DNA of 64,000 nt. It comes from Paenibacillus sp. FSL H8-0537. GTDB lineage: Bacteria; Bacillota; Bacilli; Paenibacillales; Paenibacillaceae. The stretch covers positions 6,548,501 through 6,612,500 of the forward strand of contig NZ_CP150290.1 in assembly GCF_038051995.1 (NCBI RefSeq). Direction: 5' to 3'. A program made the translations under genes and the position numbers. The notes beneath the pieces were generated by a model that worked only from the letters and a program-made list of their open reading frames with translations, did no database searches and had not been told where the DNA came from. Shown one piece after another: positions 26,749-37,518 of the stretch (its first letter is position 1; each line of letters starts with the position of its first letter).

Positions 26749-28347
26749 TTAACACAATGCGCGCAGCACATCATCAATTTTTCTATGATGGGAAAGCACG
26801 CCATAATTCATCCACGACAAAAAATCGACTTCATATACGCTGCCATTTCGCACGGCGGGCAGCGACCGCCAGAGCGGCGATTGCAGCAGCTCGATTTGCC
26901 TGCCCGCAATCGTATCAATGGTAATAAACAGATGTTCGGCGTCAAGCAGCGCCAGCTCCTCCATTGACAGCTCAACGAACCGCAAACCTTTAGCCAGCTT
27001 TTCTACGAGTGAATGAGGGCTCAGCCCTAAATCGCGGTAAAGCACCGGGCCGGTGTAGCCATGGTCAGGACCGCCATACAACTGCACTCTATCGGCCGAC
27101 AAACGCAAACAGGCGACCGTTTGCCGCTTCACCGCCCGCAGCAGCTTTGCCTTGGCGGCAGCCGCTTTATTTTCATAATCAGCAATAACAGGGCTTACTT
27201 CCTCAGCCTTCCCGAGCAAATCCGCAATGTTATGCAGCGTTGAACGCCATTCCTCGCCTTTATAGGAAAGCTGGATACTCGGTGCAAGGCTGGCAAGCTT
27301 GTCCATGCCCCACCGTTCAATGCCCGCATCCATCAAAATAAATTCCGGCGCGAAGCCAGATAGGGTCGCTTCGTTATCGGTGTCCACATTAAATTCTGGC
27401 ACATCATCAAGACCAAGATATTCCTGCCGCCCCCAATGATCGTGGCTGAATTGCATAATAGGCCTGATGCCAAGCGCCAGCAAATAATCCTCGATAAAAG
27501 GTGCAAAGACCCGAATATTTTCCCGCTGATGGCGGCGATATTGGCCCGGTGTAAGGCCAACGGACTGCTTGAAGCGGCGGCTAAAATAATATTCATTGCT
27601 ATAGCCGACGCTTTGCGCGATGCGAAACAGCCGATCATCCGTGCTTGCCAGCAGCTTTTTCGCCTGCTCTACACGTACCTCGTTCAAATAATGCAGCGGA
27701 ATTTCGCCCGTCAGCTCCTTGAATAGACGGGAATAGCGCCAGCGCATCATGCCTGCATGGTCGGCAAGCTTGTCTACCGTCAGCTCTTCCCGGAAGTTTT
27801 GCCGAATATGGGCAATCGACTGTTCCATCGCTCGCCTTTCGCCGCTTTCTGTGCGCAGAGGCAGGTTTTGCTGCATGATGAATAATAGAAGCTGCTGAAA
27901 TCTGATATCATGACGGAAAGCCTCCAGCTCATCCTCCACTTCCCGCTTATCATGGAGCGCCTGAAGCTCACTCATACAATAGGAGAAGGGCTTGCAGGAA
28001 ACCTCGCCCAGACAAGGAAAAGGGACAGACGTCGGCTCCGCTCCAATTCCATCAAAGGCAAGGTAGTAGAACGACAGTTCCTCCTCTCCGCGCTCAAATC
28101 CACCAGCTGCAAACTCCATCCTCGTACCCGGGCCAAAAATAAAACAGGCTCCACGGCCCAGAGCATGCCGCTCTCCCTCTCCATTTACGTAAAGCGTTCC
28201 AGCTCCACCCGTCACTATCATGATGATATGGTCATCAGCGGTGGGCAGCACCTGCTCCTGTCCATTTTCTACGTTCCAATATTGTATAGCAGTCAGCCTA
28301 TAGAATATCGCATGGCGCAGCTGCGGCTTATTTCCCTCGTCGATCAA
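26749..28347 (-). CDS. AraC regulator with C-terminal siderophore-binding domain (Btr-like)
   Basis: 532-residue cytoplasmic regulator. An N-terminal cupin-like region is followed by the two AraC helix-turn-helices (LTVDKLADHAGMMRWRYSRLFKEL; LFRIAQSVGYSNEYYFSRRFKQSVGLTPGQYRRHQ) and a FeuA/FhuD-type binding domain (LLALGIRPIMQFSHDH, PEFILMDAGIERW, SVYEVDFLSWMNYG). This is the architecture of B. subtilis Btr, which binds a ferric siderophore and activates its uptake genes. There is no signal peptide or membrane span. Start is TTG at 28347 after AAGGGGG; the nearer ATG is followed at once by a stop. A Fur-box-like sequence upstream and a siderophore-binding lipoprotein gene as neighbour support this role. 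Confidence 0.9.
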   Translation of the reverse strand: MIDEGNKPQLRHAIFYRLTAIQYWNVENGQEQVLPTADDHIIMIVTGGAGTLYVNGEGERHALGRGACFIFGPGTRMEFAAGGFERGEEELSFYYLAFDGIGAEPTSVPFPCLGEVSCKPFSYCMSELQALHDKREVEDELEAFRHDIRFQQLLLFIMQQNLPLRTESGERRAMEQSIAHIRQNFREELTVDKLADHAGMMRWRYSRLFKELTGEIPLHYLNEVRVEQAKKLLASTDDRLFRIAQSVGYSNEYYFSRRFKQSVGLTPGQYRRHQRENIRVFAPFIEDYLLALGIRPIMQFSHDHWGRQEYLGLDDVPEFNVDTDNEATLSGFAPEFILMDAGIERWGMDKLASLAPSIQLSYKGEEWRSTLHNIADLLGKAEEVSPVIADYENKAAAAKAKLLRAVKRQTVACLRLSADRVQLYGGPDHGYTGPVLYRDLGLSPHSLVEKLAKGLRFVELSMEELALLDAEHLFITIDTIAGRQIELLQSPLWRSLPAVRNGSVYEVDFLSWMNYGVLSHHRKIDDVLRALC

Positions 28348-28516: not shown

Positions 28517-29548
28517 TTATTTGACGAACATTTTCAAAATATCATCGATTTTCATGGCATTTGCTGTTATGCCGCCGGACTGCCAATAGGATCTCTCCAC
28601 CCGGTGTACATGTCCTGCCTTCACTGCGGGGATAGCCTGCCAAATTTTGCTATCCAGCAGCTTCAGCGCTTCCTGATTTTCAGGTGAATCCCAAGTTCCA
28701 TTGGACAATAAAAGAATAATGTGGTCGGCATCTAGATCCGGTAAGCTTTCTTCTGTTAAAATCTTTTGAAATTCCTCCATATCCTTCGACCATGTATTGG
28801 GCGTAAGACCCAGATTGGGATATATGGAGCCAATAAAACGGTTGTTCACTCCGAACAATGCGAAGGTGCTATCTTCCACATTCAAACGAATGACCGCTAC
28901 GGATTCATCGCCAAGCGCTGTATTGAGCTTCTCCTTGGCATCGGCTATTTTCTGCTCGTAAGCACTAATCACGCGATCTCCCTGTTCCTTCATATTCAGG
29001 ACATCCGCAATGGTCGTCAAAATCGCTTGAGAATCCAGCAAAATATTTTCCGGCAAACGGTAGGTAGGTGCTATTTTAGAATATAAATCGTATTTGGCTT
29101 TGTCTGCCCCGCCGTCCACTATAATTAAGTCCGGTTCCATTTCAAGCAGCGCTTCAATATTGCCCGAAATATCAAACGTTGGCAAATCCAGCTTCAAATA
29201 TTCCTGCGTCCCCCAATTCGGGTGATACCACTGGACAACTGGCGTTACACCAAGCGCCGTCAAATAGTCCTCCAAATAAAGTGCCGCTACGCGCTTCGGA
29301 TGTGCCGGAATCGTTACCTCTCCAAATTCGTCCTGGAGCACTCGCGTTTCCGCTACCTGCTCCGCAGCTGCCGGCTCATCCGCTCTAGCAGGAGATGGGC
29401 TTACAGTGGCCGCTGCATCGCTAGCCTCCGTATTAACAGCTGTCTCGCCTTGCGAACCGCAACCCGCGAGCGCTATGATAACGGCTAACGCCAGCAGCGT
29501 GAGCACCGTCATTTTACCCTTGAACCTCTTTTTCCCCCATTGCATCAT
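28517..29548 (-). CDS. Iron-siderophore ABC transporter substrate-binding lipoprotein
   Basis: 343 residues: signal peptide with lipobox (TLLALAVIIALAGC), then a type-3 binding protein fold with a rigid central helix, as in FeuA/YfiY (VTIPAHPKRVAALYLEDYLTALGVTPVVQW, LLEMEPDLIIVDGGADKAKYDLYSKIAP, HIILLLSNGTWDSPENQEA, SYWQSGGITANAMKIDDILKMFV). The frame extends 14 codons upstream, but those overlap the Fur region; ATG at 29548 has GGGGAG ten bases upstream. No permease or ATPase genes are adjacent, so it must use an uptake system encoded elsewhere. Fur control is indicated by a box 27 bases upstream of the start. Confidence 0.92.
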   Translation of the reverse strand: MMQWGKKRFKGKMTVLTLLALAVIIALAGCGSQGETAVNTEASDAAATVSPSPARADEPAAAEQVAETRVLQDEFGEVTIPAHPKRVAALYLEDYLTALGVTPVVQWYHPNWGTQEYLKLDLPTFDISGNIEALLEMEPDLIIVDGGADKAKYDLYSKIAPTYRLPENILLDSQAILTTIADVLNMKEQGDRVISAYEQKIADAKEKLNTALGDESVAVIRLNVEDSTFALFGVNNRFIGSIYPNLGLTPNTWSKDMEEFQKILTEESLPDLDADHIILLLSNGTWDSPENQEALKLLDSKIWQAIPAVKAGHVHRVERSYWQSGGITANAMKIDDILKMFVK

Positions 29549-29574
29549 CCCTGCTCGACTCCCCTTTAAATCAG

Positions 29575-29589
29575 TGATTATCATTATCA
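29575..29589. promoter_or_regulatory. Fur box of the siderophore-binding lipoprotein gene
   Basis: On the minus strand TGATAAT-G-ATAATCA, one mismatch from the perfect 7-1-7 Fur palindrome, overlapping a possible -10 (TAATCA) 17 bases from TTGATC. Confidence 0.85.
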
Positions 29590-29779
29590 AATGACGAGAT
29601 CAAGTTTAGCCTATCCCCCGCCCTGCCTTCAATGCACATACGCTACAATTTTCTTATACAAACGCTATCGGCATAGCCATAGCCTATTCGCCTCACCCCA
29701 TCCAGCTGCCCTCTATATATTCCAGTCCCTGCAAAAATATTGTTAAAAACATGCATTTATGGGCATCTAGAAGCGTTCC

Positions 29780-29922: not shown

Positions 29923-30969
29923 ATGGATCAGAAAGCCAAGCAAGCGAGCTTGAAAAAGAGTCTTGCCCCTTACGAAAAAGTGAATATGAAAACCAGCATA
30001 CGACAATTAATCAATACGTTACTCCCACTCGGGTTTTTCTGGTACGCGGCGTATGCCGTCATGCCAATCTCTTATTTGCTCACGATTGTTTTTTCCTTAA
30101 TTACTGCAGGCTTTGTCATTCGGACCTTTATTATTTGCCATGATTGCTGCCACGGTTCATTCTTCAAGAGCAAACGGGCAAATGCTATCGTCGGCACGAT
30201 AACAGGGATTATTACCCTCGTCCCTTTCCAACAGTGGAAATACAGCCACTCCATCCATCATGCAACGAGCAGCAATCTCGACAAGCGTGGTATCGGTGAC
30301 ATTTGGATTATGACCGTAGATGAATATATTGCAGCAACGCCTTTGCGCCGCCTTTTCTATCGTATTTACCGCCATCCGGTCGTCATGTTTGGCCTTGGCC
30401 CGATTGCTGTGTTTCTTATTCAATACCGTTTCAACCGTAAAGGCGCTAGACGCCAGGAACGCTTCAACACGTATTTGATCAATGTTTCGATTGTTGCTTT
30501 ATATGCAGGTCTTAGCTGGCTTCTGGGCTGGCAGGCATTCGTCATGGTACAGCTGCCCGTTATGTTTTTATCCGGACTGTTCGGCATTTGGCTGTTCTAC
30601 GTCCAGCATCAGTTCGAAGATACGTATTTTGAAAATGAAGATGAGTGGAGCTATGTGAAAGCAGCCGTTGAAGGCAGCTCTTATTACAAGCTTCCCCGTC
30701 CATTACAATGGATTACCGGCAACATCGGCTTCCATCATGTGCATCACCTGAGCCCGAAAGTGCCTAACTACTATTTAGAGGATGCGCACAACTCGTCCGT
30801 TCCGCTTCAGCAGGCAACGACGATTACTCTTAAAACAAGCTTGACGGCACTGCGTTTCCGCTTGTGGGATGAAGAGAACAACATGTTCGTCAGCTTTAAA
30901 GGCATGAAGCATCGTCTGCGCAAGCCGCGTGCGGCAAGCACCAAGCTGGATACAAGACGCGTTGGTTAG
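29923..30969 (+). CDS. des: Acyl-lipid fatty acid desaturase
   Basis: 348-residue membrane di-iron enzyme that introduces a double bond (delta-5 in B. subtilis) into acyl chains of membrane lipids. The three histidine boxes are present: HDCCHGS, HSIHH and HHVHH. Four or more hydrophobic spans flank them (LINTLLPLGFFWYAAYAVMP..., SIVALYAGLSWLLGW). Length is like B. subtilis Des. GGAGGAG precedes the ATG. It is followed by its own terminator and by the desK-desR pair, the known thermosensor that switches des on in the cold. Confidence 0.95.
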   Translation: MDQKAKQASLKKSLAPYEKVNMKTSIRQLINTLLPLGFFWYAAYAVMPISYLLTIVFSLITAGFVIRTFIICHDCCHGSFFKSKRANAIVGTITGIITLVPFQQWKYSHSIHHATSSNLDKRGIGDIWIMTVDEYIAATPLRRLFYRIYRHPVVMFGLGPIAVFLIQYRFNRKGARRQERFNTYLINVSIVALYAGLSWLLGWQAFVMVQLPVMFLSGLFGIWLFYVQHQFEDTYFENEDEWSYVKAAVEGSSYYKLPRPLQWITGNIGFHHVHHLSPKVPNYYLEDAHNSSVPLQQATTITLKTSLTALRFRLWDEENNMFVSFKGMKHRLRKPRAASTKLDTRRVG

Positions 30970-30991
30970 CAGGTACAAAGATATACACACG

Positions 30992-31029
30992 AAAGAGGCT
31001 GCGCGGAACCAAATGCGCGAGCCTCTTTT
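30992..31029 (+). terminator. Terminator of des
   Basis: AAAGAGGCT.CGC pairs with GCG..GCCTCTTT followed by TTAT, 22 bases after the des stop. Confidence 0.85.
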
Positions 31030-31093
31030 ATGTTAAAATAGCTTCAAAGCAGCTCCTTATGCTGCAACAGCGATTTGAAAAGGCGGGACGCAT

Positions 31094-32242
31094 ATGCAAA
31101 AATGGCATCATATTTTTCATAAAAATACGGGAATCAGCCCCTATGTATGGGTCGTTTTCTACATCCTGCCCTTCTACTTTATTTTCCGCAACTCATCGCC
31201 CTACCAAGCGACTTCCGGTATTGTGATGATCGTTTTATTTTTCATCTGCTATATGCTTTCCTTTATGTCCAAGGGCTGGCAGGTTTATTTCTGGACCAGC
31301 ATCCAAATTATTATTTCCATCGCGATGACGCTCATGTTCGGCTATGTGTATTTTTCCATCTTTCTCGCTTATTTTATCGGCAATATCCAGAACCGCATCG
31401 GCTTCTTTACGCTGTATTCTATTCATATCGTCACGACCTTCCTGAGCATCAACTATGGGCTGGCTGTGCAAAATCCGGTCTTTCTCGCGCAATTCCCCTT
31501 CGTACTCATTAGCTTGATCGGCGTCATTTTGCTTCCGGTCAATACGTACAACCGCAATAAGCGGGACAAGCTGGAAGGCGAGCTTGAGCATGCCAACAAG
31601 CGGATTTCCGAGCTCGTCAAGCTGGAGGAGCGGCAGCGGATCGCCCGCGACCTGCATGATACGATCGGGCAGAAGCTGTCGCTCATAGGTCTGAAAAGCG
31701 ATCTGGCGGGCAAGCTGATGCAGAAAAATCCCGCCAAGGCGCAGGAGGAAATCGATGATGTGCGCCAAACGGCGCGCACGGCGCTCAAGGAAGTACGGGA
31801 GCTTGTTACGGAAATGCGTGGAACACGGCTTGAGGATGAGCTTTTTCGGGTAAAACAAATTTTGAAGGCTGCTGATATCCAGCTTATAATTGAAGGCGAC
31901 CCGTCGCATACCGACACTTCACTGCTTGCCGAAAATGTCGTCAGCATGTGTCTCAAGGAAGCGGTAACGAATATTGTCAAGCACAGCTCCGCTACCAAAT
32001 GTCTGGTCGAGATTGAAGCAACCCGTACAGAGCTCATTGTCCGCGTTCAAGACAATGGCACGGGCATTGCTACGGGCGGCAAAGAGTCGCGCAGCTATTA
32101 CCGGGGAAATGGCCTTAGGGGCATGAAGGAAAGACTGGAGTTTATTAATGGCAGTCTGGACATTATTTGCAGCGATGGCACGATGCTCGTCATTAAAGCG
32201 CCAAATGTCGTCCAGAAGCCGGAAAAGGAGTCCTCTCTATGA
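31094..32242 (+). CDS. desK: Thermosensor histidine kinase DesK
   Basis: 382 residues. Four to five membrane helices occupy the first 150 residues (VVFYILPFYFIF, IVMIVLFFICYMLSFM, IQIIISIAMTLMFGYVYF, PFVLISLIGVILLPV), the region that measures membrane thickness in B. subtilis DesK. A two-helix coiled coil leads to the HisKA_3 motif ERQRIARDLHDTIGQKLS; the phosphorylated His is residue 188, the same number as in B. subtilis. The HATPase part has AVTNIVKHSSATKCLVEI and VQDNGTGIA..GNGLRGMKERL. It acts as kinase in the cold and phosphatase in warmth on DesR. AAGGCGGG precedes the ATG. Confidence 0.94.
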   Translation: MQKWHHIFHKNTGISPYVWVVFYILPFYFIFRNSSPYQATSGIVMIVLFFICYMLSFMSKGWQVYFWTSIQIIISIAMTLMFGYVYFSIFLAYFIGNIQNRIGFFTLYSIHIVTTFLSINYGLAVQNPVFLAQFPFVLISLIGVILLPVNTYNRNKRDKLEGELEHANKRISELVKLEERQRIARDLHDTIGQKLSLIGLKSDLAGKLMQKNPAKAQEEIDDVRQTARTALKEVRELVTEMRGTRLEDELFRVKQILKAADIQLIIEGDPSHTDTSLLAENVVSMCLKEAVTNIVKHSSATKCLVEIEATRTELIVRVQDNGTGIATGGKESRSYYRGNGLRGMKERLEFINGSLDIICSDGTMLVIKAPNVVQKPEKESSL

Positions 32243-32838
32243 TAAGAATTGTAATCGCCGAAGACCAGCGGATGCTGCTGGGAGCACTCGCTTCCCTGCT
32301 TGAGCTGGAGGACGATATGACCGTGGTCGGCAAAGCTGGAAACGGCGAAGAAGCGATCACGCTCGTCCAGCAACACAAGCCGGACATTTGCATTATGGAC
32401 ATTGAGATGCCGGTCAAGAACGGATTGGAGGCAGCGGAAGAAATTCGCCAGCTGGGCTGCAAGGTTATCATTTTGACCACCTTCGCCAGAAGCGGCTATT
32501 TCGACCGTGCGCTCAAGGCCGGCGTGTGCGGCTATTTGCTCAAAGACAGCCCAAGCGAGGAGCTGGCCAGCTCCATACGCAGCGTCATGACCGGCCGCCG
32601 CATTTATGCGCCAGAGCTGGTGGACGACGCCTACGGGCAGGAAAACCCGCTCACCGAACGGGAGAAGGAAGTTCTCGGCCTCATCGCCGACGGCAAAAAT
32701 ACGAAGGAGATCGCCGACCAGCTTTATTTGACCAATGGCACCGTGCGCAACTATATTTCCGTCATTTTGGATAAGCTGGGCGTGAGCAACCGGATCGAGG
32801 CGATTACCCGTTTTAAGGAGAAGGGCTGGTTTAAATGA
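32239..32838 (+). CDS. desR: Response regulator DesR
   Basis: 199-residue NarL/LuxR-type regulator. Receiver domain with Asp54 as phospho-acceptor (DICIMDIEMPVKNG), conserved Thr and Lys (IILTTFAR, YLLKDSP), and a C-terminal helix-turn-helix (LTEREKEVLGLIADGKNTKEIADQLYLTNGTVRNYISVILDKLGVSNRIEAI). It overlaps desK by four bases (ATGA), so the two are translationally coupled. When phosphorylated it should activate des through sites upstream of 29830. Confidence 0.95.
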   Translation: MIRIVIAEDQRMLLGALASLLELEDDMTVVGKAGNGEEAITLVQQHKPDICIMDIEMPVKNGLEAAEEIRQLGCKVIILTTFARSGYFDRALKAGVCGYLLKDSPSEELASSIRSVMTGRRIYAPELVDDAYGQENPLTEREKEVLGLIADGKNTKEIADQLYLTNGTVRNYISVILDKLGVSNRIEAITRFKEKGWFK

Positions 32839-34917: not shown

Positions 34918-34932
34918 TGATAATGATTATCA
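34918..34932. promoter_or_regulatory. Perfect Fur box upstream of the AraC gene
   Basis: TGATAAT-G-ATTATCA, an exact 7-1-7 palindrome, 48 bases upstream of the ATG at 34980. Confidence 0.9.
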
Positions 34933-34979: not shown

Positions 34980-36962
34980 ATGGAATGGAATGAGCATGCT
35001 CATTTATGGACACAGGCGTCGGTGAAGCTGATGGATGTCAGGTTCGTGTCGTTGCGGGGAAGCGATACGCCGCCAGTCTATCAGCTTCCAGCAAACGGCT
35101 TCCTCTTTGCCGTGCGCGGTTCGGCGCACATCGCACTTGATTATACGGAATATGAGGTGAACGGCATGTTCGCGCTGCATGGCGGCAAAGGGATGCTGCT
35201 GGATATTCGCCTCGCAGCAGAGCAGTTTGACTACTATCTTGTTCTGTATAAAGCCAATGTTCCTTTGCCCAGCGACCCGCACAAACACCCTATCCATTCG
35301 CCAGCCTACCCTTTTCAGGTACAATACGGCTGTATTCCCTCCTATCCATTGTCACTGTTCGACAAGCTTGAGCTTCTCTTGCATGCTTGGAACTCGCTGG
35401 GGAATGTGGAGAAGCTTCATGCCAAAACCTTATTCTATCAGCTCATATATGAGCTTACACGGCAGCTTCGCGAGCAGACGGTAAAAATCATTCCGGCCGA
35501 TCCAGCCGAACAGGCTTTGCGGTATATCCATGAGCATTACGCGGAACCCCTTACACTTGACAAGCTGGCGTCTATGCTGGATTGCAGCCCCAGCCATCTC
35601 TCACGCATATTCAAGCAGCGCGCTTCCTGCAGTCCTATTGAATATATGATTCGTTTAAGAGTGGGCAAAGCTCGCCACCTGCTTATCCACACGGATGCGA
35701 GCTTGCAGGACATTGCTGCGGCTATCGGTTATTCCGATGTCTATTATTTCAGTAGAATTTTCAAAAAACAGTCCGGTTTATCGCCGCTTAAGTATCGTGA
35801 GCATGAGTCCGCGGAGCGCAATAACATCAAACAACATAATCCATTCCTGATGCTAAGATCGTCCATTGTTCCAGCCAAGCTCAAACGTTATATTAAAGCT
35901 CGAAGTGATAATGGTTATCAATACGAGAGCAGAGGGGATTTTCAATTGGTTAGGAACAAAAGAAACTCAGCGGCGTTGACATTACTGGTATGTCTCACGC
36001 TGCTATTGAGCGCTTGCTCAGGAACGACAGCAGGAAATCGGGCAGCAGGCAGCAATGGTGCGGCAAACAATTCTGTAGCGACGTCTGGCAATACTGCAGG
36101 CAATGTTGTGCAATCGGAAGCGGCTACTATGAATTACACGGGAGCAGACGGCGAAGTCGAGGTTCCCCGCAATCCCCAACGAATTGTAGTCCTCACCCAC
36201 GCTTATGTCGGCTACTTTATGGTACTTGGCATTAATCCGGTCGGGGCGCCGAGCATGACGATGGAGAACCCGCTATACGAAGGCAAAATTGACGGAATGG
36301 AAGATATCGGAGCATGGGGCGCTTTCTCGATCGAAAAAATTATCTCCTTGAATCCGGATCTTATCGTAGCGCTGGCTAATACGGAAAACCTGGATGAGAT
36401 TAAGAAGATTGCTCCGGTTGTTACCGTAAACTATGGAGAGAAAAATTATAAAGAGCAATTAATCGAATTCGGCAAGCTGACGAACCGCGAGGATGCGGCC
36501 AAGCAGTGGGTTGCTGGCTGGGAAGCCAAAATCGCCGAGGCTAAGCCTAGAGTGCTGCAGGCAGTTGGCGATAAAACCGTATCGGTGCTAAGCCCTCACA
36601 ATAAAGGCGTATATATTTACGGCGAAGGCTTTGGACGCGGAACCGAAATTTTGTACGACGAGTTTGGGCTCAAGGTACCTGCTGACTTCGATGTCAAGCT
36701 TGGCTCCAAGGAAATCTCGCTTGAGAGGGTCGCCGACTTCGCGGGAGACTACATCTTCACTACGCCAGATACAAGCGAGAGCAGTGACACAAGCCCGACG
36801 TATGAAACGGAAATATGGAAAGGGCTGCCGGCCGTTAAAGCGAACCGTGTTTTCTACATGGAAAAAGGGTCTGCTGCATTTAATGATCCAACGACACTAG
36901 AAGCGATGCTTCCGTTTATTGTAAACAGCCTCACCAATGGAGAAAATGAAGATGGAGCATGA
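34980..36962 (+). CDS. AraC regulator fused in frame to a siderophore-binding lipoprotein
   Basis: One uninterrupted 660-codon frame from ATG 34980 (GGGGGTG upstream). Residues about 1-175 are a cupin-like sensor. Residues about 180-290 carry the two AraC helix-turn-helices (LTLDKLASMLDCSPSHLSRIFKQ; LQDIAAAIGYSDVYYFSRIFKKQSGLSPLKYREHE). About 35 residues of non-conserved, basic linker follow, then an internal signal peptide with lipobox (ALTLLVCLTLLLSACSG, Cys near residue 341), then a type-3 iron-siderophore binding domain (VEVPRNPQRIVVLTHAYVGYFMVLGINPV, IISLNPDLIVALANTENL, FYMEKGSAAFNDPTTLEAMLPFIVNSL). The linker DNA contains a Fur box, promoter-like boxes and an AGAGGGG-TTG start at 35946. 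Two genes whose stop codon was lost, or a membrane-spanning sensor, are both possible. Confidence 0.85.
   Translation: MEWNEHAHLWTQASVKLMDVRFVSLRGSDTPPVYQLPANGFLFAVRGSAHIALDYTEYEVNGMFALHGGKGMLLDIRLAAEQFDYYLVLYKANVPLPSDPHKHPIHSPAYPFQVQYGCIPSYPLSLFDKLELLLHAWNSLGNVEKLHAKTLFYQLIYELTRQLREQTVKIIPADPAEQALRYIHEHYAEPLTLDKLASMLDCSPSHLSRIFKQRASCSPIEYMIRLRVGKARHLLIHTDASLQDIAAAIGYSDVYYFSRIFKKQSGLSPLKYREHESAERNNIKQHNPFLMLRSSIVPAKLKRYIKARSDNGYQYESRGDFQLVRNKRNSAALTLLVCLTLLLSACSGTTAGNRAAGSNGAANNSVATSGNTAGNVVQSEAATMNYTGADGEVEVPRNPQRIVVLTHAYVGYFMVLGINPVGAPSMTMENPLYEGKIDGMEDIGAWGAFSIEKIISLNPDLIVALANTENLDEIKKIAPVVTVNYGEKNYKEQLIEFGKLTNREDAAKQWVAGWEAKIAEAKPRVLQAVGDKTVSVLSPHNKGVYIYGEGFGRGTEILYDEFGLKVPADFDVKLGSKEISLERVADFAGDYIFTTPDTSESSDTSPTYETEIWKGLPAVKANRVFYMEKGSAAFNDPTTLEAMLPFIVNSLTNGENEDGA
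35866..35948 (+). promoter_or_regulatory. Embedded promoter, Fur box and ribosome site for the binding-protein half
   Basis: Inside the fused frame: TTGTTC (35866-35871), 17 bases, TATATT (35889-35894), then TGATAAT-G-GTTATCA (Fur box with one mismatch, 35906-35920), then AGAGGGG (35931-35937), eight bases, and TTG (35946) that starts the lipoprotein signal peptide. The product from this TTG to 36962 would be 338 residues, normal for such a lipoprotein. Confidence 0.7.
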
Positions 36963-37518
36963 GGCTCTCGGCGTTCGCTCTACGATTACAGGCAGAAGAA
37001 CGATCCGCGATTTTAACGGCGAGCCGCTGACAGAAGCAGCGATTCAGCAATTGCTGGAGGACGCGGTGTGGGCACCGTTTCATTCCTCCAAAGAGCCTTG
37101 GCGTTTTATTCTATTTACGGGAGACGGCCGGAGCAAGTTTGCGGATGCTGTAAGGTTAACCCAACCCAAGGAGATGCTTGAAAAATGGGGCACTTGGATC
37201 GAGACGCAATACTGCTCTCTTATACAAGCCCATCTAATTGTCGTCGTCAAAGCCCATCCCCGGCAAAGAGAGTGGGAGGAAGCGCTGATGGCTGCTTCCG
37301 CTCTCATTCAAAATGTACAATTGCTGGCATGGGAGCGGCAGATTGGTGTCGTATGGAAGACGCATGACTACAACTGGGATCCCCGATTTCATCGTGCTAT
37401 TGGCGTTAAAGCAGATGAGAGAATCGCCGGCACGCTGCATCTCGGCTATTTTGACAAAACACCGAAAGCAAGGCGCAGAACCCCCGCAGCCAAGCTGCTA
37501 ACCTGCTTTAGGGATTAG
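36952..37518 (+). CDS. Nitroreductase family protein
   Basis: 188-residue FMN-dependent oxidoreductase of the NfsA/NfsB superfamily: STITGRRTIRDFNGEPLTEAAIQQLLEDAVWAPFHSSKEPWRFILFTGD at the N-terminus (FMN phosphate-binding R-R-x-R/I and the W-P/APxxxNxxPW-like segment), and QNVQLLAWERQIGVVWKT further on. The first ATG is at 36937, but the one at 36952 has GGAG nine bases upstream and matches the family start better; either overlaps the end of the preceding gene. Linked to siderophore genes, it could reduce ferric complexes, which is inference. Confidence 0.88.
   Translation: MEHEALGVRSTITGRRTIRDFNGEPLTEAAIQQLLEDAVWAPFHSSKEPWRFILFTGDGRSKFADAVRLTQPKEMLEKWGTWIETQYCSLIQAHLIVVVKAHPRQREWEEALMAASALIQNVQLLAWERQIGVVWKTHDYNWDPRFHRAIGVKADERIAGTLHLGYFDKTPKARRRTPAAKLLTCFRD

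Follow-up and report, generated by a model that had tools for sequence, protein, structure and literature searches.

The window analysed here, a 64,000-nucleotide stretch of DNA from Paenibacillus sp. FSL H8-0537, contains a single reading frame that runs without interruption from an ATG at 34980 to a TGA at 36962 (660 codons) and joins a regulator to a lipoprotein. Is one protein made from it or two, and what purpose does the DNA between the two halves serve? A preliminary description had seen in this frame an AraC protein followed by a complete lipoprotein, with a -35 and a -10 box, a Fur box, the ribosome site AGAGGGG, a TTG start and a lipobox. The joined frame was borne out by an ORF check and by Pfam, and every one of these elements was found at its place (Table 1).

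Table 1. Features of the fused reading frame and of its two promoters, in window coordinates
Feature	Position	Strand	Remark
Upstream-promoter Fur box, TGATAATGATTATCA	34918-34932	+	14/14; before AraC start
Fused ORF, 660 aa: AraC-type regulator, linker, lipoprotein signal peptide, siderophore-binding protein	34980-36962	+	
N-terminal domain, residues 1-175: beta barrel, then two long helices	34980-35504	+	AlphaFold2 model
AraC double helix-turn-helix, residues 177-280; recognition helices 204-215 and 254-265	35508-35819	+	Pfam, AlphaFold2
Predicted operator half-site 1: box A 35830-35834, core ATAATCCAT 35836-35844	35830-35844	+	
Predicted operator half-site 2: box A 35852-35856, core ATCGTCCAT 35858-35866	35852-35866	+	22 bp from half-site 1; touches -35
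Internal -35, TTGTTC	35866-35871	+	TTG conserved, remainder variable
Internal -10, TATATT	35889-35894	+	17-nt spacer from -35
Internal Fur box, TGATAATGGTTATCA	35906-35920	+	13/14 consensus bases; protein reading DNGYQ
Internal ribosome-binding site, AGAGGGG	35931-35937	+	
Nested gene: putative free siderophore-binding lipoprotein, start TTG 35946-35948	35946-36962	+	In frame with the fusion
Signal peptide and lipobox LLLSAC, Cys 346 at 36015-36017	35946-36017	+	Alignment, model
Siderophore-binding domain Peripla_BP_2, residues 383-654	36126-36941	+	Pfam, structure matches, model

Pfam identified the double helix-turn-helix of the AraC/XylS family at residues 183-274 (HTH_18/HTH_AraC; PF12833, 83.4 bits for a cut-off of 33.6; PF00165, 68.8 bits, in two stretches) and Peripla_BP_2 at residues 402-628 (PF01497, 102.6 bits). 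Residues 1-175 had no match in this Pfam search of the fused protein; their modelled fold is one that we take to be typical of the AraC sensor and dimer domain. The closest solved chains, 3hxp (E 1.7e-70) and 3g9q (E 1e-68), are ferrichrome/hydroxamate-binding proteins. In an AlphaFold2 model built from 30 sequences (mean pLDDT 80.9, pTM 0.45), the N-terminal beta-barrel with its helices, the helix-turn-helix pair and the binding domain were all confident, and the signal peptide appeared within the fusion as an internal hydrophobic helix (residues 331-345) placed directly before the lipobox Cys 346. Both Peripla_BP_2 and a lipobox being present, the second half is predicted to be a siderophore-binding lipoprotein. 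Residues 284-330 and 347-380 had pLDDT values below 50, and the linker peptide was modelled as disordered.

We then determined how widespread the fusion is. Counting the window's gene, 13 full-length copies reach E<=1e-90 in the same genome, and a 14th (L118) is more distant. At this threshold, 29 of 51 genomes of the genus gave a match, three of them by an unfused lipoprotein only, which leaves 26 of 51 with the fusion. Since a full-length query is biased to fused copies, the search was repeated with residues 1-182 only. This query returned 230 matches in 32 of the 51 genus genomes and, at the level of the order, matched 171 of 392 genomes and 18 of 49 genera. The long form is also carried by Lysinibacillus, to which named contigs gave access. 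Among the 89 matches listed from the protein database, 80, the window's own protein being one of them, carry AraC and Peripla_BP_2 Pfam domains; the source names are mostly those of AraC regulators or substrate-binding proteins, and none of those listed hints at a second product. The preliminary description had suggested that a stop codon and an intergenic region had become translated, and had called for a comparison with relatives: the copies in the same genome and the 26 fused genus genomes say otherwise, the fusion being recurrent rather than recent. Recent stop loss is rejected because the fusion is widespread, and so is an assembly or sequencing error (a missed stop or a frameshift, a possibility raised in that description), to which we give practically no weight, as no interruption lies between the AraC half and the lipobox in an orthologue of 93% identity from a different genome, nor in 155 other ORFs. 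In a 76% identical orthologue (L010), the one TAG reported is the terminal stop only. From its distribution among these sequences, the nested design looks ancient.

Some arrangements of these genes deserve mention on their own account. Two fusion genes lie in tandem, 223 nt apart, in the same genome as the window (G000:C1:4808718-4812858), which also contains a relic AraC half of the family lacking the binding domain (L119:12161-12979, G000 ~739160-739978). Elsewhere, pairs of fusion genes stand head to head, about 120 nt apart, with a common upstream region (G034:C1:297387-298581, also G033:C12, G022:C84 and G018:C18).

All stop-to-stop frames matching both halves were collected for statistics, giving 164 unique ORFs. 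The alignments are based on the 157 that have a cysteine at the lipobox column, 14 of them from the genome of the window; the seven others, mostly short fusions of the Btr type, have neither the linker nor its promoter. Greedy clustering below 60% identity yielded 40 representatives, poorly aligned members such as L118 and L200 being retained.

We considered the possibility that a single fused protein is the only product and that the linker is conserved as protein, the DNA elements being by-products of conserved residues. The residues DNHYQY and SSIV are conserved in the alignment, as this would require. Yet synonymous sites are nearly frozen there. Over 57 independent pairs, the synonymous difference was about 0.27 along the gene versus 0.06, 0.12, 0.06 and 0.16 in four windows spanning residues 286-333, and 0.02 in both the -10 and the Fur box; dS was 0.63 for the AraC half and 0.59 for the binding domain, as compared with 0.14 for the elements and 0.27 for the remaining linker codons. 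Furthermore, the codon following TAT, TAC or CAT in the -10 box was A-N-T in 39 of the 39 representatives having it (17.7 expected from codon usage), while the amino acid varied (Ile 15, Asn 11, Ser 8 and Thr 5 times); across all 157 sequences it was A-N-T in 153, GAT in 3 and absent in 1. One DNA word also recurs 22 nt apart in two codon phases, as detailed below. In addition, the model shows the linker peptide as disordered. A single product is, on these grounds, highly improbable.

The other elements led to the same picture. Among the representatives, the -10 box, the Fur box (35/40), the ribosome site and the start codon (38/40) are kept at the DNA level. The aligned start column contains ATG in 33, TTG in 3, GTG in 2 and another codon in 2; where it encodes Val the codon is always GTG, and where it encodes Leu always TTG (5/5 in representatives, 1.1 expected; 21/21 in all 157, 4.5 expected). 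Third bases of the Fur box exceed codon usage, with T in 39 of 40 at the His column (26.3 expected) and A in 32 at the Gln column (15.5 expected), the first Asp/Glu column being weaker (T in 21, 15.4 expected). Scored over 14 bases against what we take to be the Fur consensus, the best box reached at least 12/14 in 35 of 40 representatives, all in the same frame. The summed score was 516, versus 459 (sd 5.8) for synonymous reshuffles (z 9.8); taken singly, only 5 of 40 representatives, including the window's gene (p 0.01), had p<=0.05. For the ribosome site, the summed score corresponded to a z of 3.7. Spacing is kept as well: a distance of 24 nt separates the -35 from the -10 codon in 40/40 and the Fur core lies 36 nt from the start in 35/40. 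One of seven Lysinibacillus linkers examined (L308) shows the element pattern poorly.

These findings indicate that start codon and ribosome site are conserved beyond protein constraint, as in a nested gene, and that the internal promoter and start are very probably functional. Fur boxes of 13/14 in the internal and 14/14 in the upstream promoter would place the gene, by its sequence, in the Fur regulon. As a point against, the internal promoter was not listed by a consensus promoter scanner, because its -35, TTGTTC, has only 3/6 consensus bases; a weak -35 is usual in activator-dependent promoters. As selection acts on the linker DNA, we consider it highly likely that two products are made, the full-length fusion and a free lipoprotein. 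The preliminary description had already suggested two products, and we prefer this reading because it is as DNA that promoter, Fur box, ribosome site and start are held within the frame; a conserved fusion with a degenerate Fur box and start, which it had named as the outcome that would speak against it, was not what we found, both being conserved in most family members. It had missed, however, the presence of an operator.

Indeed, linkers aligned on the -10 box contain a direct repeat, ATNNTCCAT, at -53 and -31, the second copy of which enters the -35 as ATNNTCCATTG. Self-similarity of the linkers gave a single peak at 22 nt (0.58 versus 0.18-0.31 at other shifts), and the two half-sites stand in different codon phases, because 22 is not a multiple of 3. 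They scored 5.58 and 5.83 of 7, as compared with 4.26 and 4.18 for synonymous reshuffles. Both cores attained at least 5/7 in only 27 of 40 representatives and 118 of 157 sequences overall, a proportion that we count against our preferred reading. In the 7.0-Mb genome of the window, the operator pattern was matched 10 times with up to two mismatches, versus once for the reversed control pattern. All five matches with 0-1 mismatch fell within linkers of fusion genes, two of them, including that of the window's gene, being perfect; so did one of the five with two mismatches. Upstream of the AraC start, no operator of at least 12/14 was present in the 39 genes tested.

To which protein does this operator belong? 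The bases at -6 to -2 before each core (box A) vary between genes, but the two half-sites agree within a gene (agreement 0.55-0.68 within versus 0.30-0.38 between genes; p 0.0000, 5000 permutations). The window's own gene, in which they agree at just 2/5 bases, counts against this. The 271 AraC columns were ranked by covariation in 81 sequences of less than 80% identity and in the 40 representatives. The first recognition helix contained the best predictors of box A in either half-site, residue 209 for half-site 1 and residue 205, followed by 209, for half-site 2. The core of half-site 1 was best predicted by residue 256, followed by 260, in the second recognition helix. For the core of half-site 2, which is nearly invariant because it meets the -35, the signal was weak and mixed (215 first and 260 second in the larger set). 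As controls, spacer and far-upstream segments ranked no residue of either helix above 7th, while the seven bases between the half-sites ranked residue 255, in the second helix, 2nd (81 sequences) or 5th (40), perhaps through their position next to the core.

Given this covariation of operator bases and recognition helices, it is probable that every regulator binds the operator located within its own frame. A direct-repeat operator contacted by both recognition helices is what characterises the AraC/XylS family, and here it is found as a sequence pattern. In AraC-family activators, the first helix-turn-helix is distal and the second is nearer the -35; the order deduced for the linker operator is the same. 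An alternative is that the repeat is the site of a different regulator, or that the AraC half binds there as a repressor rather than as an activator. The tie between regulator and site is one of sequence, from which the effect of binding is unreadable, and this leaves such a possibility some room. We nevertheless consider it rather improbable, in view of the covariation with both helices of the same ORF, of the confinement to fusion genes of the repeat at up to one mismatch in the window's genome, and of its position: in class II activation the activator site is located at a weak -35, and the arrangement in the linker fits this. Binding of each AraC half to the operator in its own linker thus appears quite probable.

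The most serious alternative is that both products are made, but that the full-length fusion has no function, AraC activity coming from the N-terminal part and the frame having stayed open either through inheritance or for the reason that a stop would impair expression of the nested gene. In line with this, the linker peptide is modelled without order and its codons other than those of the elements evolve fast (omega 0.56), so that the linker seems of little importance as a protein, which we also count against our preferred reading. The AraC half, moreover, appears complete without the binding domain (Pfam, AlphaFold2). Unfused forms exist, too: a truly separate AraC and lipoprotein pair in one genome (L280), whereas the only matches in G004 (L036), G014 (L034) and G046 (L035) are unfused lipoproteins that have the same layout and are closely related to the binding half. 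The latter frames read CYIDNDYQYH or LYIDNDYQYH, i.e. the same -10/Fur layout, with no AraC frame before it; they may be either descendants that lost the regulator or forebears. Also, the divergences of the two halves are weakly correlated (r 0.24, label permutations giving at most 0.24), which we count against our preferred reading.

Against a functionless fusion stands the openness of the frame. None of the 40 diverged representative linkers has a stop in frame 0, which is open by construction, whereas stops occur in frame +1 in 33/40 and in frame +2 in 40/40. Linker lengths are equal in 54 of 57 pairs, the three others differing by one or two codons. The 837 linker substitutions in these pairs, which were chosen as open frames, comprise no stop, while 32.3 would be expected if they were blind to coding; this supports, but does not prove, selection for an open frame. 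A less biased view is offered by the search with the N-terminal half, which is blind to the fusion: of the 150 matches listed (230 in all), 146 sit in open frames of at least 600 aa.

The short exceptions to this rule that we examined seem to be mostly decaying copies. In L278 and L279, the linker is still read and the break comes after it, in the binding half. At the order level, the frames of L341, L342 and L343 include the linker and are ended or broken within the binding half, that of L340 is already lost in the linker, and in L339 the AraC half is broken while the lipoprotein frame is intact; L345 has a stop within the AraC half but retains linker and binding half. Relatives of the N-terminal half are found in frames of 575-595 aa in L275-L277 and L281. 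The last of these (G033:C1) is a Btr-like fusion without a lipobox, followed by a separate, similar lipoprotein, and is a possible intermediate between the Btr-like and the nested designs. Standalone lipoprotein genes (L130-L132, L134) and the unfused pair L280 have Fur-like boxes and ribosome sites before their starts; a clear 22-nt repeat was absent there (best 9-11 of 14), as it was from the stretch upstream of L036 (best 11/14). Taking both sides together, we think it unlikely that the fusion is functionless, and lean towards a full-length protein that works as a fusion.

At the upstream promoter, the Fur box scores at least 12/14 in 19 of 39 representatives and is perfect in the window's gene. 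A FecCD permease was found in the fetched flank (mostly ~700 nt) of 31 of 157 loci, 28 times downstream and 3 times upstream, and two such permeases follow the fusion copy at 1304311 in the window's genome; the position of the binding half is thus one expected for a transport lipoprotein. The FecCD search of this genome gave no match near the window's gene. A nitroreductase-family gene at 36937-37518 (+) starts within the end of the fused ORF. The overlap suggests a single transcript, and the product is possibly a siderophore reductase, a function that we guess. About 6 kb from the nested gene, the window also contains a conventional layout, in which a short Btr-like fusion (AraC helix-turn-helix plus Peripla_BP_2, 532 aa; 26749-28347, -) adjoins a separate Peripla_BP_2 protein (28517-29590, -). 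Genes for a fatty-acid desaturase, a DesK-like kinase and a response regulator follow one another at 29923-32838 (+).

The likely best explanation is that of a nested, self-regulated gene, in which a single reading frame would give two products owing to a self-activated internal promoter. It builds on what can be read from the sequence, i.e. the fusion, the open frame, the conservation of the elements as DNA and the covariation of operator and helices. The upstream promoter would drive formation of the full-length protein, comprising AraC regulator, disordered linker, signal helix with lipobox and siderophore-binding domain. The linker DNA would double as a complete promoter, with the AraC half bound to the 22-bp direct repeat that enters the weak -35, and with Fur repressing over the expected transcription start. 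RNA made from this promoter would be translated from the internal start to yield the free siderophore-binding lipoprotein, and the downstream permeases where present. At low iron, Fur would leave both promoters, and a siderophore signal, presumably the ferric siderophore, would cause the regulator to raise the amount of its own binding protein. We infer that the regulator activates rather than represses, that Fur binds, and that a siderophore is the signal.

The full-length protein is probably tethered to the membrane by its signal helix, with the binding domain outside, and would be either uncut, acting as a transmembrane sensor, or cut at the lipobox. Conservation of the lipobox is silent on this point, because the free lipoprotein needs it anyway. 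An uncut transmembrane sensor, such as the preliminary description had envisaged, is a tentative suggestion, which we hold to be possible though somewhat doubtful; beside it we set that the AraC half possesses a beta-barrel N-terminal domain, as predicted by the model. Equally conjectural is a self-contained receptor circuit, in which a tethered AraC protein with an outside sensor would, when loaded, activate the linker promoter to provide free copies of the sensor, each circuit having a private operator code.

How does this compare with known systems? NCBIfam NF049932 is, we assume, Btr (YbbB), the AraC-type bacillibactin regulator of Bacillus subtilis with a C-terminal substrate-binding domain. 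Btr and the nested gene are alike in combining an AraC DNA-binding half with a siderophore-binding (Peripla_BP_2) half in a context of iron uptake. The fused ORF scores 114.9 bits with this equivalog, below its cut-off of 900, and, unlike Btr, has a signal peptide, promoter, operator, Fur box and start between the halves. Btr is not known to have a signal peptide before its binding domain, whereas the lipobox cysteine is present in 157 of the 164 two-half ORFs. PchR-type siderophore-responsive AraC activators are combined with Fur, regulator and target being separate genes; unlike these, the nested gene has promoter and operator inside the regulator's own reading frame. Such activators are described as local regulators answering to the siderophore (PMC12943173). 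For spaO, an internal translation start is described that produces a C-terminal isoform, so that one frame gives two products (PMC13059759). The nested gene would share with spaO the internal start and two products from one frame, but differs from it by a whole promoter with two regulator sites and by a short product predicted to be a surface lipoprotein. FhuD-type siderophore-binding lipoproteins of FecCD transporters have the same domain, lipobox and Fur-boxed promoter (FecCD genes follow at 28/157 of the fusion loci), but their frame does not extend upstream into a regulator, as that of the nested gene does. Finally, ToxR and CadC are membrane-bound one-component regulators with a DNA-binding half, a single hydrophobic helix and an outside sensor. 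The fusion would resemble them by its DNA-binding half, its one predicted hydrophobic helix and its presumed outside sensor, and differs by its AraC helix-turn-helix and by a lipobox in place of a plain anchor.

AraC-binding-protein fusions, joint control by Fur and AraC proteins, and internal-start isoforms are thus each already known separately. A literature search, with most subscription papers outside its reach, found, among the titles and abstract openings that it listed, no description of an AraC-lipoprotein fusion with an internal promoter, and we know of no conserved ORF whose two halves enclose, in frame, the operator of the regulator together with a repressor site, a promoter and the start of the target. 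Here, a single frame seems to hold the regulator and its target gene as well as the promoter with its operator and repressor site, kept across an order as code and as control DNA, which makes a clear natural case of dual-purpose coding. The family also supplies about 40 diverged examples from which to learn how AraC recognition helices read DNA, and suggests a way, amenable to testing, in which siderophores could be sensed from the outside. Multiplication of the receptor circuit, if it is real, would have given some genomes at least a dozen copies, and the private operator code of each copy (box A with residues 205 and 209) would allow separate answers to many foreign siderophores.
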